Of a stretch of 64,000 bases of DNA, positions 32,558 through 53,692 are shown piece after piece. The translations under genes were made by a program, and so were the position numbers. Within the stretch, counting starts at the first letter, position 1, and every line of letters begins with the position of its first letter. Source of the stretch: Limimaricola pyoseonensis (lineage in GTDB: Bacteria > Pseudomonadota > Alphaproteobacteria > Rhodobacterales > Rhodobacteraceae); NCBI RefSeq assembly GCF_900102015.1, contig NZ_FNAT01000001.1, positions 434,001 through 498,000 of the forward strand, given 5' to 3'. Below the pieces are notes generated by a model. That model made no database searches. It saw only the letters and a program-made list of their open reading frames with translations, and had not been told where the DNA came from.

Positions 32558-32848
32558 ATGCAGGATCTACTGACGCAGGTCTCGAGGCTGACGCGCCCGG
32601 CGCTTCTGGTGCGCGCGGCGCGGTTCGGCGTGGATGGCTACGACCGGGCCCGCCATCTCGGACGGGCCCTGGGGAGTGCCGCGCCGGCGCGGCCGGGGCC
32701 GGCCCTCGCGCAGCTTCTCGAGCGCGAGGCGCTGCTCGACAGGCGGCGGCGCAGCGGCAAGGGCGACTACAGCGCCGCCCGCCACACCGAGCTTCTGATC
32801 GCCGTGATGGGCGAGGCGCGGGCGCTGCGGGCGGCGCGTGCTAGCTGA
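32558..32848 (+). CDS. DUF6477 family protein
   Basis: A 96-residue basic, helical protein with no signal peptide or membrane segment. The conserved-looking core is LTRPALLVRAARFGVDGYDR, with LLEREALLDRRRRSGKGDYS and the C-terminal helix RHTELLIAVMGEARAL. I recall this pattern as DUF6477, of unknown function and restricted to Rhodobacterales-type genomes. GAGGGA lies before the ATG. Its divergent neighbour encodes a DUF6456 putative regulator. It ends a few bases from the convergent methyltransferase gene. Confidence 0.75.
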   Translation: MQDLLTQVSRLTRPALLVRAARFGVDGYDRARHLGRALGSAAPARPGPALAQLLEREALLDRRRRSGKGDYSAARHTELLIAVMGEARALRAARAS

Positions 32849-34403
32849 AGCTGTCGGGCATCGACGCCTTCTTCGCCTCGACGTAGTCGGTCAGCCGCTG
32901 CGCGATCTCCGGGTCGAGCGGCGGCTGCCGGTAGGTCTCGAGCAGTGTCGCGACCTTGGCGCGGGCCAGCGCCTCGGTGTCGCGCCCGCCCTCCTCGGCC
33001 CAGGTCTCGAACGGCTTGTAGTCGAACAGGCCGCTGCGCCAGAAGGCGGTCTTGAAGTTCTCCTGCGTGTGGGCGCAGCCGAGGTAATGGCCGCCCGGCC
33101 CGACCTCGCGGATCGCGTCCATCGCCTGGCCGGTGGTCGAGGCATCGACGCCGCCGGCCAGCTGGTGCAGCGCGCCGAGCTGGTCGGCGTCCATCACGAA
33201 CTTCTCGTAGGAGGCGACCAGCCCGCCCTCGAGCCAGCCGCAGGCATGCAGCATGAAGTTCACCCCCGCCATCAGCCCGGTCTGCAGGCTGTTGGCGCTC
33301 TCGTAGCCGGCCTGGGCGTCGGGCAGCTTGGAGCCGCAGAAGCCGCCGGCCGAGCGGTAGGGCAGCCCGAGGCGGCGCACGATCTGGCCCATGCCGTAGG
33401 TGATCAGCGAGGCCTCCGGCGTGCCGAAGGTCGGCGCGCCCGAGTTCATGTCGATCGAGGTGACGAAGGCGCCGACGATCACCGGCGCGCCTTCGCGCAC
33501 CAGCTGCGAATAGGCGACGCCCGCCAGTACCTCGGCCAGCACCTGGGTCAGCGTGCCCGCGACCGTGACCGGCGCCATCGCGCCGCCGACAATGAAGGGC
33601 GAGATGATGCAGGCCTGGTTGGCCCTGGCGTAGACCTCGAGCGCGCCCATCATGATGCCGTCGAAGGTGAGCGGCGAGTTGATGTTGATGAGCGAGGTCA
33701 TCACCGTGTTCTCGGCGACGAAATCCTTGCCGAACAGGATCTCGCACATCTCGACGCTGTCGCGCGCCCGCTCGGGCGCGGTGACCGAGCCCATGAAGGG
33801 CTTGTCCGACAGCGTCATGTGCGCCAGCAGCATGTCGAGATGGCGCTTGTTGACCGCGACGTCGGTCGGCTCGCAGACCGTGCCGCCCGAATGGTGCAGC
33901 CAGCGCGACATGTAGCCCAGCTTCACGAAGTTGCGGAAATCCTCGATCGTGGCGTAGCGCCGGCCGCCCGAGGCGTCGCGCACGAAGGGCGGGCCGTAGA
34001 CCGGGGCGAGCACGAGGTTGCGGCCGCCGATCTCGACGTTGCGCTCGGGGTTGCGGGCGTGCTGGGTGAAGCGCGCGGGCGCGGTGGCGCAGAGCTTGCG
34101 CGCCAGACCGCGCGGAATGCGCACCCGGTCGCCGGTGACGTTGGCGCCGGCCTGCCGCCAGAGCTCCAGCGCCTCGGGGTTGTCGGAGAAGACCACGCCG
34201 ATCTCTTCCAGCACGGTCTCGGCATTGGTCTCGATCACCTCGAGCGCGGCGGCGTCGAGCACCTCGAAATCGGGGATGTTGCGCGCGATGTAGCGCGCGG
34301 TCTCGACGCTGACCGCGCTGCGCTCCGCCCGCCGGGCCGCGCCGCCGCCAGACCGTCCGCGCCGCCCCGTCCGCCCGGCCGTCGCCTCTGCCGCATCCGT
34401 CAT
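32841..34403 (-). CDS. MttB-family corrinoid-dependent methyltransferase (non-pyrrolysine)
   Basis: A 520-residue TIM-barrel protein of the trimethylamine methyltransferase superfamily. Non-pyrrolysine members transfer a methyl group from quaternary amines such as glycine betaine or proline betaine to a Co(I) corrinoid protein. Family-like segments include EVIETNAETVLEEIGVVF, LAPVYGPPFVRD, YGMGQIVRRLGLPYR and GPGGHYLGCAHTQENFKTA. There is no in-frame TAG, so pyrrolysine is not used. The ATG at 34403 opens an Ala/Gly/Arg-rich N-terminal extension of about 30 residues. A likely corrinoid partner is encoded about 18 kb away (52317-53018), not adjacent. The substrate is unknown. Confidence 0.85.
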   Translation of the reverse strand: MTDAAEATAGRTGRRGRSGGGAARRAERSAVSVETARYIARNIPDFEVLDAAALEVIETNAETVLEEIGVVFSDNPEALELWRQAGANVTGDRVRIPRGLARKLCATAPARFTQHARNPERNVEIGGRNLVLAPVYGPPFVRDASGGRRYATIEDFRNFVKLGYMSRWLHHSGGTVCEPTDVAVNKRHLDMLLAHMTLSDKPFMGSVTAPERARDSVEMCEILFGKDFVAENTVMTSLININSPLTFDGIMMGALEVYARANQACIISPFIVGGAMAPVTVAGTLTQVLAEVLAGVAYSQLVREGAPVIVGAFVTSIDMNSGAPTFGTPEASLITYGMGQIVRRLGLPYRSAGGFCGSKLPDAQAGYESANSLQTGLMAGVNFMLHACGWLEGGLVASYEKFVMDADQLGALHQLAGGVDASTTGQAMDAIREVGPGGHYLGCAHTQENFKTAFWRSGLFDYKPFETWAEEGGRDTEALARAKVATLLETYRQPPLDPEIAQRLTDYVEAKKASMPDSFS

Positions 34404-34572
34404 CTTCCGTTCCCCGTCATGGTGCCTGCCCCTCGTGATACCCGTCCGGTCCGGCCGGGATTGGATGGATTGCGCCACCTGAGGGGCGAAAGCGACATGG
34501 CGTCCCGCCCGGGGCCGGTTTTCGCGAAATGCGCCTCTTGCGCGGCGGGCGGACCCGGCCTATTCGCTGCCC

Positions 34573-49907: not shown

Positions 49908-51305
49908 TCACACTTCCACCTCCTGCCGCGGGGCGGCCAGCAGCTCGGCCAGACGGTCGAGCCCTGCGGCGAAGGCCGCGTCGTCGCGCTCCCCGGTCAG
50001 GGCCAGTCGCACCGCCGAGGGCGCGCGCCCGTCGATCAGCGCGAACTCGTCGGCCGGCTTGATCCGCACGCCGCGCGCCTCGGCCGCGCCGCTGAGCGAG
50101 GAGGGCCGCCAGCCGCGCGGCATCTCGAGCCAGGCGAAGGGCACGCCGTCGCGCAGCCGCAGCGCGAAGCCGCCGAGCCGGTCGCGGGCCATCGCCACGC
50201 GGCGCGCCTGCACCGCCAGCACCGCGTCGCGCACCCGGTCTGCGACGCCGCTCGACAGCGCCGCCTCGGCCAGCGCCACGGTCGGGCGCGACAGGCCGAA
50301 GAACTGCTGCTGCGCGGCCAGTCGGGCGCGGCCGCCCTGCCCCGGTGCCGCGAGGATCGCGCCGAGCCGCAGGTCGGGGCTGAGCGTCTTCGACAGCGTT
50401 GTCACCACCCAGGACCGTTCGGGCGCGAGGCGGCGGTAGCTGGCATCCTCGCCGCCCTCGGCACGGAAGCAGTCGTCGTCGATGATCTGCAGATTGTACT
50501 CGCGGCAGACCGACACAATTTGCGCCCGCCGCTCCGGCGAGGTGCGGATGGTGGTCGGATTGTGCGCCTCCGGGCTGGTACAAAGCACCTGCGCCCCGGT
50601 CTCGCGGCAGGCCCGGGCCAGCGCGTCGGGCAGGAGCCCCTCGCCGTCGAAGGAGATGCCGTTGATCTCGGCCCGCACCAGCGCCGCGGCGTGGCGAAAT
50701 CCGGGATAGGCCAGCTCCTCGGTCAGCACCACCGGCCGCGGCCCGTGCAGCAGGCTTTGCAGCAGCACCACCATGCCGTGCTGCGCCCCGGCGGTGAGCA
50801 CCACGTCCTCGGGCGCGATGATGCCGTGGCCGGGTGCGGCGAACCAGCCGGCCAGAAGCTCGCGAAGGCGCAGGTCATGCTCCGGGCCGGGATAGGTCAC
50901 ATAGGCGCCCGGGCCGGGATCGGGGAGGGATTTCAACAGCGAATGCAGCATTGCGCCCTGCCCGACATCGGCCACGTGCGCGGTGCGCAGGTTCAGCATC
51001 GTGCCGTCGCGCCCAGGGCCGAGATGGTCGAGCAGCGCCGGCAGCGGCGCCGGGGTCTCGGGCACCGCCACGAAGGTGCCGCGCCCGACCATGGCCGAAA
51101 GCACGCCCTGGTCGACGAGGTCTTTGTAGGCGCGGGCGACGGTACCCGGCGTCACCCCGAGCCGCCAGGCCACCTCGCGCACCGGCGGCAGCCGCGTGCC
51201 CGGCTCGATCCGCCCGGTGCCCACCGCCTGCTGGATCGACCGCTTGATGGCCTGGTGCTTGACCGGGATGCCCTCGGCCAGTTCCGGCCACCAAGTTGTA
51301 TCCAT
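49908..51305 (-). CDS. MocR-type regulator (GntR helix-turn-helix fused to aminotransferase domain)
   Basis: A 465-residue fusion. The N-terminal winged helix-turn-helix (about 15-75) contains RLPPVREVAWRLGVTPGTVARAY. The remainder is a fold-type I aminotransferase domain, with TSPEAHNPTT, the DDDCF strand and the PLP-lysine motif TTLSKTLSPDLRLGA. MocR proteins bind PLP but usually regulate transcription of nearby genes. The start ATG at 51305 follows AGGAG. It is divergent from a DUF1127 gene, with TTGTAT/ATACAA repeats between. The regulated pathway is not evident. Confidence 0.9.
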   Translation of the reverse strand: MDTTWWPELAEGIPVKHQAIKRSIQQAVGTGRIEPGTRLPPVREVAWRLGVTPGTVARAYKDLVDQGVLSAMVGRGTFVAVPETPAPLPALLDHLGPGRDGTMLNLRTAHVADVGQGAMLHSLLKSLPDPGPGAYVTYPGPEHDLRLRELLAGWFAAPGHGIIAPEDVVLTAGAQHGMVVLLQSLLHGPRPVVLTEELAYPGFRHAAALVRAEINGISFDGEGLLPDALARACRETGAQVLCTSPEAHNPTTIRTSPERRAQIVSVCREYNLQIIDDDCFRAEGGEDASYRRLAPERSWVVTTLSKTLSPDLRLGAILAAPGQGGRARLAAQQQFFGLSRPTVALAEAALSSGVADRVRDAVLAVQARRVAMARDRLGGFALRLRDGVPFAWLEMPRGWRPSSLSGAAEARGVRIKPADEFALIDGRAPSAVRLALTGERDDAAFAAGLDRLAELLAAPRQEVEV

Positions 51306-51384
51306 CACAAAACTCCTATCGACGCCGTTCGCCGCAGATTGTATCTATTGCGTATCCCTGAACGACCACATTGTGTCAATACAA
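51296..51384. promoter_or_regulatory. MocR/DUF1127 divergent operator-promoter region
   Basis: TTGTATC(C/T)AT occurs twice as a direct repeat (51296-51305 and 51339-51348), and ATACAA (51379-51384) is its inverted partner. The spacer is AT-richer than both genes. Repeats of this kind are expected for autoregulating MocR proteins; the assignment is inference. Confidence 0.5.
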
Positions 51385-52316: not shown

Positions 52317-53018
52317 ATGTCCGACGAAGACGATATCGTCCTGTCCGAACTCGACGACGAGGAGCTCGTCGCCCAGATGTTCGACGACCTCTACGACGGT
52401 CTGAAGGACGAGATCATGGAGGCCACCGAGATCCTGCTGGAGCGTGGCTGGCAGCCCTACGAGGTGCTGACCAAGGCGCTGGTGGGTGGCATGACCATCG
52501 TCGGCAACGATTTCCGCGACGGCATCCTGTTCGTGCCCGAGGTGCTCCTGGCCGCCAACGCCATGAAGGGCGGCATGTCGATCCTGAAGCCGCTCCTGGC
52601 CGAGACCGGCGCGCCGCGCATGGGCAAGATGGTGATCGGCACCGTCAAGGGCGACATCCACGACATCGGCAAGAACCTCGTGGCAATGATGATGGAGGGT
52701 GCGGGCTTCGAGATCGTCGATCTCGGCATCAACAACCCGGTCGAGAACTACCTCGAGGCGCTGGAGCGCGAGCAGGCCGACATCCTCGGCATGTCGGCGC
52801 TGCTGACCACCACCATGCCCTACATGAAGGTCGTGATCGACACGATGAAGGAGAAGGGCATCCGCGATGACTACATCGTTCTCGTGGGCGGCGCGCCCCT
52901 GAACGAGGAGTTCGGCCGCGCGATCGGCGCCGACGCCTATTGCCGCGACGCCGCCGTGGCGGTGGAGACGGCGAAGGACTTCGTCGCACGCCGCCACAAT
53001 CAGATGGCCGCGGGCTGA
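52317..53018 (+). CDS. Corrinoid (cobalamin-binding) methyltransferase subunit
   Basis: A 233-residue MtbC/MttC-like corrinoid protein that shuttles methyl groups between a substrate methyltransferase and tetrahydrofolate. An N-terminal four-helix bundle (about 15-95; VLTKALVGGMTIVGNDF) precedes the Rossmann cobalamin domain. The cobalt-ligand motif DIHDIGKN (His115) is intact, with LGMSALLTTTMPYM and VLVGGAPLNEEF later. GAGGAG precedes the ATG. The DUF1638 gene follows 41 bases later. The likely methyl-donor enzyme is the MttB-like protein about 18 kb away; no methyltetrahydrofolate methyltransferase or reactivase was found here. Confidence 0.92.
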   Translation: MSDEDDIVLSELDDEELVAQMFDDLYDGLKDEIMEATEILLERGWQPYEVLTKALVGGMTIVGNDFRDGILFVPEVLLAANAMKGGMSILKPLLAETGAPRMGKMVIGTVKGDIHDIGKNLVAMMMEGAGFEIVDLGINNPVENYLEALEREQADILGMSALLTTTMPYMKVVIDTMKEKGIRDDYIVLVGGAPLNEEFGRAIGADAYCRDAAVAVETAKDFVARRHNQMAAG

Positions 53019-53059
53019 CCCCGGTTGCGCCGCCCCGGCGGCGCGACCATTTCCCTACC

Positions 53060-53692
53060 ATGACCGACCTGCCCTCAGACGACCAGCTGACGCGTTCGGG
53101 CCTTGCGCCCGAGGGGCGTGGCCGGGTGCTGCTGATCGCCTGCGGCGCGCTGGCGCGCGAGGTCCTCGCGCTGATCGGGCGCAACGGCTGGGACCATCTC
53201 GACCTGCACTGCCTGCCGGCGATCCTGCACAACCGCCCCGAGAAGATCGCGCCCGCGGTCGAGGCCGCCGTGCAGGCGCGCGGCGCGGGATACGACCGGG
53301 TCTTCGTGGTCTATGCCGATTGCGGCACCGGCGGAGACCTCGCCCGCACCTGCGAACGGCTCGGCGTCGGCATGGTCGAGGGGCCGCATTGCTATGCCTT
53401 CTACGAGGGCGTCGACGCCTTCGCCGCGCGCGGCGAGGTGACGAGCTTCTACCTCACCGACTTCCTCGTGCGGCAGTTCGACGCCTTCGTCTGGCAGCCG
53501 CTCGGCCTCGACCGGCACCCGGATCTGCGGGACATGTATTTCGGCAATTACGAGACGCTGGTCTACCAGGCCCAGACCGACGATGAGGCGCTCACCGAAC
53601 TGGCGCGCCGCCACGCCGAGCGTCTGGGGCTGGAATTCGAGCGCCGCGCGACCGGCTATGGGGAGCTGGAAGGCGCGCTGGCGCGGGCCTGA
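53060..53692 (+). CDS. DUF1638 protein linked to corrinoid methyltransfer
   Basis: A 210-residue soluble protein of unknown function. It has five cysteines in conserved-looking contexts: Cys28 (IACGALAREV), Cys51 (HCLPAILHNRP), Cys88 (YADCGTGGDL), Cys98 and Cys111 (GPHCYAFYEG), plus a C-terminal YFGNYETLVYQAQ block. DUF1638 genes are often found beside corrinoid proteins, and here it directly follows one. The Cys/His pattern suggests metal or cofactor binding, perhaps corrinoid loading or reactivation; this is inference. It is likely cotranscribed with the corrinoid gene. Confidence 0.85.
   Translation: MTDLPSDDQLTRSGLAPEGRGRVLLIACGALAREVLALIGRNGWDHLDLHCLPAILHNRPEKIAPAVEAAVQARGAGYDRVFVVYADCGTGGDLARTCERLGVGMVEGPHCYAFYEGVDAFAARGEVTSFYLTDFLVRQFDAFVWQPLGLDRHPDLRDMYFGNYETLVYQAQTDDEALTELARRHAERLGLEFERRATGYGELEGALARA

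Follow-up and report, generated by a model that had tools for sequence, protein, structure and literature searches.

The two adjacent genes at positions 52317 to 53692 of the window (the whole stretch of 64,000 nucleotides analysed here, bases 434001-498000 of contig C11 of a Limimaricola pyoseonensis genome rated 99.99% complete) very probably constitute the hub of MtgBCDE, an aerobic system that is already known. In this assignment the first gene encodes the corrinoid protein MtgC, and the DUF1638 protein encoded by the second is most likely an MtgC-specific reactivation accessory. MtgBCDE has been published as a system that produces methionine and also removes methyl groups from glycine betaine. 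The original prediction of a new demethylation system is rejected because the other modules of the published system sit in the same genome and the system is described in the excerpted text of two papers (PMC5764234; PMC12478193). The evidence gathered here comprises identities, gene set, linkage, co-occurrence and conserved residues, and the need for mtgC and mtgD and the methionine-rescued DUF1638 mutant are taken from literature on relatives. We infer by analogy both that the L. pyoseonensis pair works as it does in these relatives and what chemistry DUF1638 may perform.

The Corrinoid Protein and Its DUF1638 Partner

MtgC (52317..53018, + strand) is a cobalamin-binding hub of 233 aa with a B12-binding_2 cap and a B12-binding domain, scoring 59 bits against PF02607 and 93 bits against PF02310 in the Pfam profile search. 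The corrinoid site that had been called intact is indeed so, with the DIHDIG cobalamin-ligand motif at residues 113-118 (52653..52670, + strand). The classic cobalamin signature is DxHxxG-41-SxL-28-GG, and the spacing of the MtgC residues D113-x-H115-x-x-G118, S160-x-L162 and G191-G192 fits it. MtgC is the sole corrinoid match in the L. pyoseonensis genome. Over 230 aa it is 88% identical to a protein of Ruegeria pomeroyi strain SZCCDBG043 (locus L120), which served as the orthology reference rather than the proteins of R. pomeroyi DSS-3 or Phaeobacter inhibens themselves. With 200.8 bits against NF047996 (cut-off 370) and 171.5 bits against NF047995 (cut-off 310), MtgC stays under the cut-offs of both NCBIfam glycine-betaine MtgC models and is therefore not filed under them.

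The DUF1638 gene (53060..53692, + strand; 210 aa) is present as a single copy in the genome and matches PF07796 with 94.6 bits against a gathering cut-off of 27. It does lie immediately behind the corrinoid gene, as first described: both open reading frames are on the + strand and are separated by 41 bases (53019..53059), and these co-directional genes are probable members of one operon. When the window and loci L066, L068 and L069 were searched with Rfam at gathering thresholds, two tRNAs were the only matches, and no riboswitch emerged near the genes. The window also holds a MocR-like transcription factor at 49908-51308, whose best NCBIfam model is EhuR (258 bits, under the cut-off of 480).

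Other Modules in the Genome

The MttB-like gene noted 18 kb away proved to be a genuine PF06253 member (776 bits). This MttB-family (MtgB-type) methyltransferase occupies 32841..34478 on the - strand, about 18 kb from MtgC, in a frame without internal stop that may begin at an ATG near 34403. In the solved-structure search it matched PDB 4yyc with 717 bits and the glycine betaine methyltransferase 9yce with 396 bits. It is 80% identical to its best match in the R. pomeroyi strain genome, and a match in Limimaricola variabilis has 87% identity, with one stop reported in the aligned stretch. The gene is present in one copy in L. pyoseonensis, as opposed to eight matches in the R. pomeroyi strain genome.

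It had been stated that no known reductive activator is in the window. While this is correct for the window, a RamA-like DUF4445 gene is found elsewhere on the same contig (C11:238784-240823), approximately 193 kb past the window edge and 245 kb from MtgC. Its product features the RACo linker, middle and C-terminal domains (PF17650, PF17651, and PF14574, respectively), and it is the only DUF4445 gene found in the genome. Both the MttB-family and the RamA-like protein score under the cut-offs of their NCBIfam models, which for the latter are AcsV and RamA.

Two pterin-binding genes were found in the genome, one on C8 and the other, MtgD, on C11 (C11:259102-260157). MtgD is a pterin-binding methyltransferase of the methyltetrahydrofolate:corrinoid type, with 397 bits against NF005719 (cut-off 259). 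It is preceded by a PF13769 gene and a frame that we read as MetF-like, judging by its position and its likeness to a frame in genome G109; scanned with extra upstream residues, this frame gave no Pfam match at E 0.001. The PF13769 gene (L068:4767-5129, on C11) bears the family name 'Virulence_fact', which looks like a misnomer for a gene of one-carbon metabolism, since the gene recurs in such operons in Sinorhizobium and Azoarcus. The homocysteine methyltransferase module MtgE, around C11:325820-326656, is the sole module of its kind in the genome (216 bits with PF02574; 614 bits with NF005718, whose cut-off is 338).

Neither the MetH activation domain (PF02965) nor a MetE-type domain (PF01717) was found in the L. 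pyoseonensis genome. Together with the lack of a second corrinoid match, these absences lead to the conclusion that the split MtgC-MtgD-MtgE enzyme is probably the only methionine synthase of the organism. The demethylation role first proposed for the pair is thus likely only part of its function, with methionine synthesis likely the other, because the MetH activation domain and MetE were not found.

Linkage in Relatives and on Plasmids

The pairing of MtgC with DUF1638 far exceeds chance. Among 80 Rhodobacteraceae-type DUF1638 loci, taken as the best 80 of 571 relatives and so favouring closer ones, MtgC lies upstream of and co-directional with DUF1638 in 76, with identities to the window proteins of 81-93% for MtgC and 61-88% for DUF1638. 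In the remaining four (L109, L129, L140, and L150) no MtgC is upstream, and in L109 a contig end cuts near the gene. The two genes are no more than 100 bases apart in 18 of the 76 loci and no more than 500 apart in 50, with wider gaps in the other 26, and an MtgE match lies within the same locus in 52. The R. pomeroyi strain locus resembles the window at 88% identity for MtgC and 68% for DUF1638, with a gap of about 1.3 kb as compared to 41 bases in L. pyoseonensis. A set of 29 alphaproteobacterial loci from other genomes includes 25 with a close MtgC beside DUF1638, one with a 40% identical corrinoid fragment, and three short ones with no corrinoid gene, whose genomes carry MtgC on another contig.

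Ten plasmid records with DUF1638 were matched and four were examined. In three of the four (Sinorhizobium, Azoarcus, and Paracoccus) the corrinoid and DUF1638 genes stand in one row with MetF, pterin-type and ASKHA genes. Sinorhizobium meliloti pSymB carries MttB, corrinoid, DUF1638, 'virulence factor', MetF pieces, methyltetrahydrofolate cobalamin methyltransferase and ASKHA genes, and a betaine-homocysteine methyltransferase is encoded nearby. In Azoarcus the row from corrinoid to ASKHA adjoins glycine betaine transporter genes, and the stretch has no MttB. Paracoccus aminovorans has MttB in addition to the row, and no 'virulence factor' is listed in its gene table, which is incomplete. In the fourth record, Terrarubrum, the corrinoid and DUF1638 genes are accompanied just by a 'virulence factor' of far greater length, and the annotation of the stretch lists neither MttB nor MtgD nor ASKHA.

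A protein with a Cys-rich C-terminus that reads as ferredoxin-like was also observed beside MttB, corrinoid or DUF1638 genes at L205:5065-5769, L207:5576-6283, L161:10642-11352, and L166:9961-10527, the only four matches among the loci compared and the window. It is annotated 'ferredoxin' in L205, and occurs also in the non-MttB setting of L161. The protein is a candidate electron donor.

Comparison With Published Systems

Price and colleagues (PMC5764234, excerpted) report that Phaeobacter needs a three-piece methionine synthase, a RamA-like protein and a DUF1638 gene behind the corrinoid gene, and that the mutants, including that of DUF1638, are rescued by methionine. The fitness of DUF1638 was tied there to methionine synthase, and a part in cobalamin reactivation was suggested. 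The earlier idea of DUF1638 as a reactivase agrees with this suggestion from fitness genetics insofar as a reactivation-type role is concerned (PMC5764234, excerpted), and the balance leans modestly toward DUF1638 acting in cobalamin reactivation. For Ruegeria, Mausz and colleagues showed that mtgC and mtgD act in making methionine as well as in demethylating glycine betaine, with mtgC required for growth on the latter, and they observed higher levels of the RamA and DUF1638 proteins on such substrates (PMC12478193, excerpted). A Sinorhizobium DUF1638 protein is also listed in the part of PMC12542648 that was available. In the literature text retrieved under DUF1638, PF07796 and three locus tags, no biochemical activity is assigned to DUF1638.

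The closest comparison is the MtgBCDE system of R. pomeroyi DSS-3 (PMC12478193, excerpted), whose MtgC, MtgB, MtgD, MtgE, RamA-like and DUF1638 genes all have counterparts in L. pyoseonensis. MetH is reported as absent in most carriers, and in L. pyoseonensis neither the MetH activation domain nor MetE was found. With the split synthase of Phaeobacter inhibens (PMC5764234, excerpted) L. pyoseonensis shares a corrinoid gene followed by DUF1638, the three-piece synthase, and a RamA-like gene located elsewhere. The arrangement differs in that DUF1638, the corrinoid protein, a radical SAM protein and MtgE have consecutive locus tags in Phaeobacter, whereas MtgE is about 160 kb away in L. pyoseonensis. 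The MtgABC systems of Desulfitobacterium hafniense and Methanolobus vulcani (via the excerpted text of PMC12478193) follow the same logic, combining an MttB-family protein, a corrinoid protein, a second methyltransferase and RamA. Both of these organisms are anaerobes, however, and the L. pyoseonensis MtgC falls far below the NCBIfam glycine-betaine MtgC cut-offs.

Co-occurrence and Alternative Roles of DUF1638

DUF1638, DUF4445, MttB, MtgC and the MetH activation domain were surveyed in one set of 190 alphaproteobacterial genomes, with a close MtgC ortholog defined by at least 72% identity. DUF1638 was found in 34 genomes, close MtgC in 35, DUF4445 in 41, and MttB in 40. DUF1638 occurs jointly with each of the other three in 33 genomes; the Fisher values for MtgC, DUF4445 and MttB are 2e-33, 3e-28, and 6e-29, respectively, for genomes that are related and hence non-independent. 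The co-occurrence check thus upholds the view that MttB forms one set with the corrinoid protein and DUF1638. No association was seen with the MetH activation domain, which accompanies DUF1638 in 15 of its 34 genomes (p 0.25, 190 genomes). The original prediction had named DUF1638 occurring independently of corrinoid proteins as evidence against it; a close MtgC is missing in one of the 34 genomes (G125), where a more distant corrinoid protein is still found beside DUF1638.

DUF4445 occurs without DUF1638 in eight genomes, of which G007 and G077 show only fragments and G071 and G074 are 82% and 67% complete; the better genomes are G081, G109, G176 and G187. G109 is 99% complete and has MtgC, MtgD, RamA and MttB, and DUF1638 was not found in the genome search. 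Its row (L152 4731-11085) consists of a MetF-like gene, MtgC, a short protein, a second MetF-like gene, MtgD and RamA. DUF1638 is therefore not strictly required everywhere, and G109 offers a natural test of its purpose. In G125, by comparison, DUF1638 follows a 42% identical corrinoid protein in a genome with neither a close MtgC nor MttB, and is flanked by two frames that look like uroporphyrinogen-decarboxylase-type methyltransferases (L161 8192-15025). G176, at 93% completeness, carries MttB, RamA and a gene resembling MtgD, but neither close MtgC nor DUF1638. In G081 and G187 a different corrinoid protein (44-46%) adjoins RamA-like and pterin genes, and MttB and DUF1638 are both absent. 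G127 is without DUF4445, but is 74% complete. The exceptions G109, G125 and G176 were counted against the MtgBCDE assignment, as were the gaps in Terrarubrum and Azoarcus, the scores under cut-offs, and the scattering of the Mtg modules over the L. pyoseonensis genome.

These distributions also bear on what DUF1638 does. One possibility, unlikely in our estimation, is a role as loader or chaperone for cobalamin, in which DUF1638 would insert the cofactor into MtgC or hold it there and take no part in its reduction. DUF1638 accompanies MtgC in 33 of 35 genomes, a slightly closer match than with DUF4445, where the figure is 33 of 41 and two of the remaining eight are fragments; its gene usually lies directly behind MtgC; and the G081 and G187 clusters combine RamA-like genes with their distant corrinoid genes in genomes lacking DUF1638, all of which would suit a loader. 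G109, on the other hand, manages without DUF1638. The fitness of the Phaeobacter DUF1638 mutant follows the methionine synthase genes (PMC5764234, excerpted), which was raised against loading but fits it too and does not discriminate.

It is very improbable that DUF1638 acts as a second methyltransferase, which had been among the roles first offered, or as a substrate-specific subunit of the MttB demethylase. Although MttB is present in 33 of the 34 DUF1638 genomes, G125 has DUF1638 without MttB, and a demethylase subunit would not predict the methionine rescue of the Phaeobacter mutant (PMC5764234, excerpted). A second methyltransferase is moreover unnecessary because MtgD and MtgE, which already cover the other transfers, are in the genome. 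Finally, an uncharacterised demethylation system distinct from MtgBCDE, to which the sub-cut-off MtgC scores and a single MttB protein whose substrate is presumed might point, is scarcely credible given the 88% MtgC and 80% MttB identity to the R. pomeroyi strain proteins and the MtgD, MtgE and RamA-like modules in the genome.

Conserved Residues and Structural Model of DUF1638

The DUF1638 protein holds five cysteines (28, 51, 88, 98, and 111), and all five had been described as lying in conserved-looking contexts. The conserved ones number four rather than five because C98 is Cys in just 6 of 30 aligned rows; in an alignment of 60 closer rows of Rhodobacteraceae type, C98 too shows almost no variation. 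Cys28 (53141..53143, + strand), Cys88 (53321..53323, + strand), and Cys111 (53390..53392, + strand) are invariant, without exception in the 30 rows, whereas Cys51 (53210..53212, + strand) is Cys in 29 of 30. In the AlphaFold2 model (mean pLDDT 93.5), Cys28 is the last residue of strand 1 (23-28), Cys51 lies near the end of strand 2 (47-52), Cys88 is in the loop after strand 3 (80-84), and Cys111 is in the loop after the short strand 4 (104-105). The placement of the four at or just past successive strand ends hints at a metal, Fe-S or cofactor site. The invariant T133-D134, Q172 and G199 come after later strands of the model. Parallel strands are usual in alpha/beta folds of this kind, and provided that the strands are parallel, many of the invariant residues would sit along a single sheet edge, much as they do in an active site or a metal site.

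Structural and sequence comparisons were less telling. Foldseek gave no match to the model at E 0.001, and a solved-structure search with the DUF1638 profile gave three matches, all at chance level (E 0.57-0.65). VIA-align reached a top Z of 7.0, a level that the tool itself calls common. Six of the 50 VIA-align rows listed are nitrogenase-like proteins of the NifD/BchN fold (Z 5.4-6.9 over model residues 17-113), and the remaining rows listed include racemases, esterases and binding proteins, the racemase- and esterase-like rows scoring about equal to the nitrogenase-like ones. No methyltransferase was noticed among the 50 matches listed by Foldseek and the 50 listed by VIA-align, a result that excludes nothing.

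A nitrogenase-like origin of DUF1638, prompted by some of the VIA-align rows, was examined with the PF00148 proteins of alphaproteobacterial genomes, L. pyoseonensis included, split by eye into NifD-like and BchN-like sets. L. pyoseonensis itself has four PF00148 matches at C11:725225-746822, perhaps chlorophyll-type reductases, which would suggest a phototroph. Whole-length profile comparison of DUF1638 with these sets gave nothing. With cropped profiles the E value was 0.018 for the BchN-like set and 0.59 for the NifD-like one. MttB, an unrelated control, reached 0.028, and the NifD-like set in reverse, at 0.12, beat the true one. Since the controls are comparable or better, the cropped comparisons are not evidence for kinship, and a nitrogenase-like origin is left unsupported by the profile comparisons.

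Proposed Mechanism and Significance

In the MtgBCDE assignment preferred here, cobalamin would be carried by MtgC, and the MttB-family protein MtgB would methylate its Co(I) form, with glycine betaine or a comparable quaternary amine as the donor. MtgD would exchange the methyl group with tetrahydrofolate, and MtgE would hand it to homocysteine to give methionine. In air Co(I) would be lost to Co(II), so that re-reduction would be needed, a step thought to be carried out by the RamA-like DUF4445 ATPase. DUF1638 is most likely an accessory specific to MtgC that helps this ATPase, and it probably does so by way of a metal, Fe-S or cofactor site to which the conserved cysteines contribute. A more specific version, rather doubtful as it stands, is that DUF1638 is a hitherto unrecognised redox protein with a metal or Fe-S centre, possibly a pared-down relative of a nitrogenase-like cluster-binding domain. 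It would dock on MtgC and give an electron to Co(II) in a reaction driven by the RamA-like ATPase.

The co-occurrence table, the G109 and G125 settings and the map of invariant residues make the function of DUF1638 directly testable. If true, a redox role of DUF1638 would make corrinoid methyl transfer workable in air. The MtgBCDE system itself is important for the turnover of glycine betaine in the sea and for making methionine where MetH and MetE are lacking.
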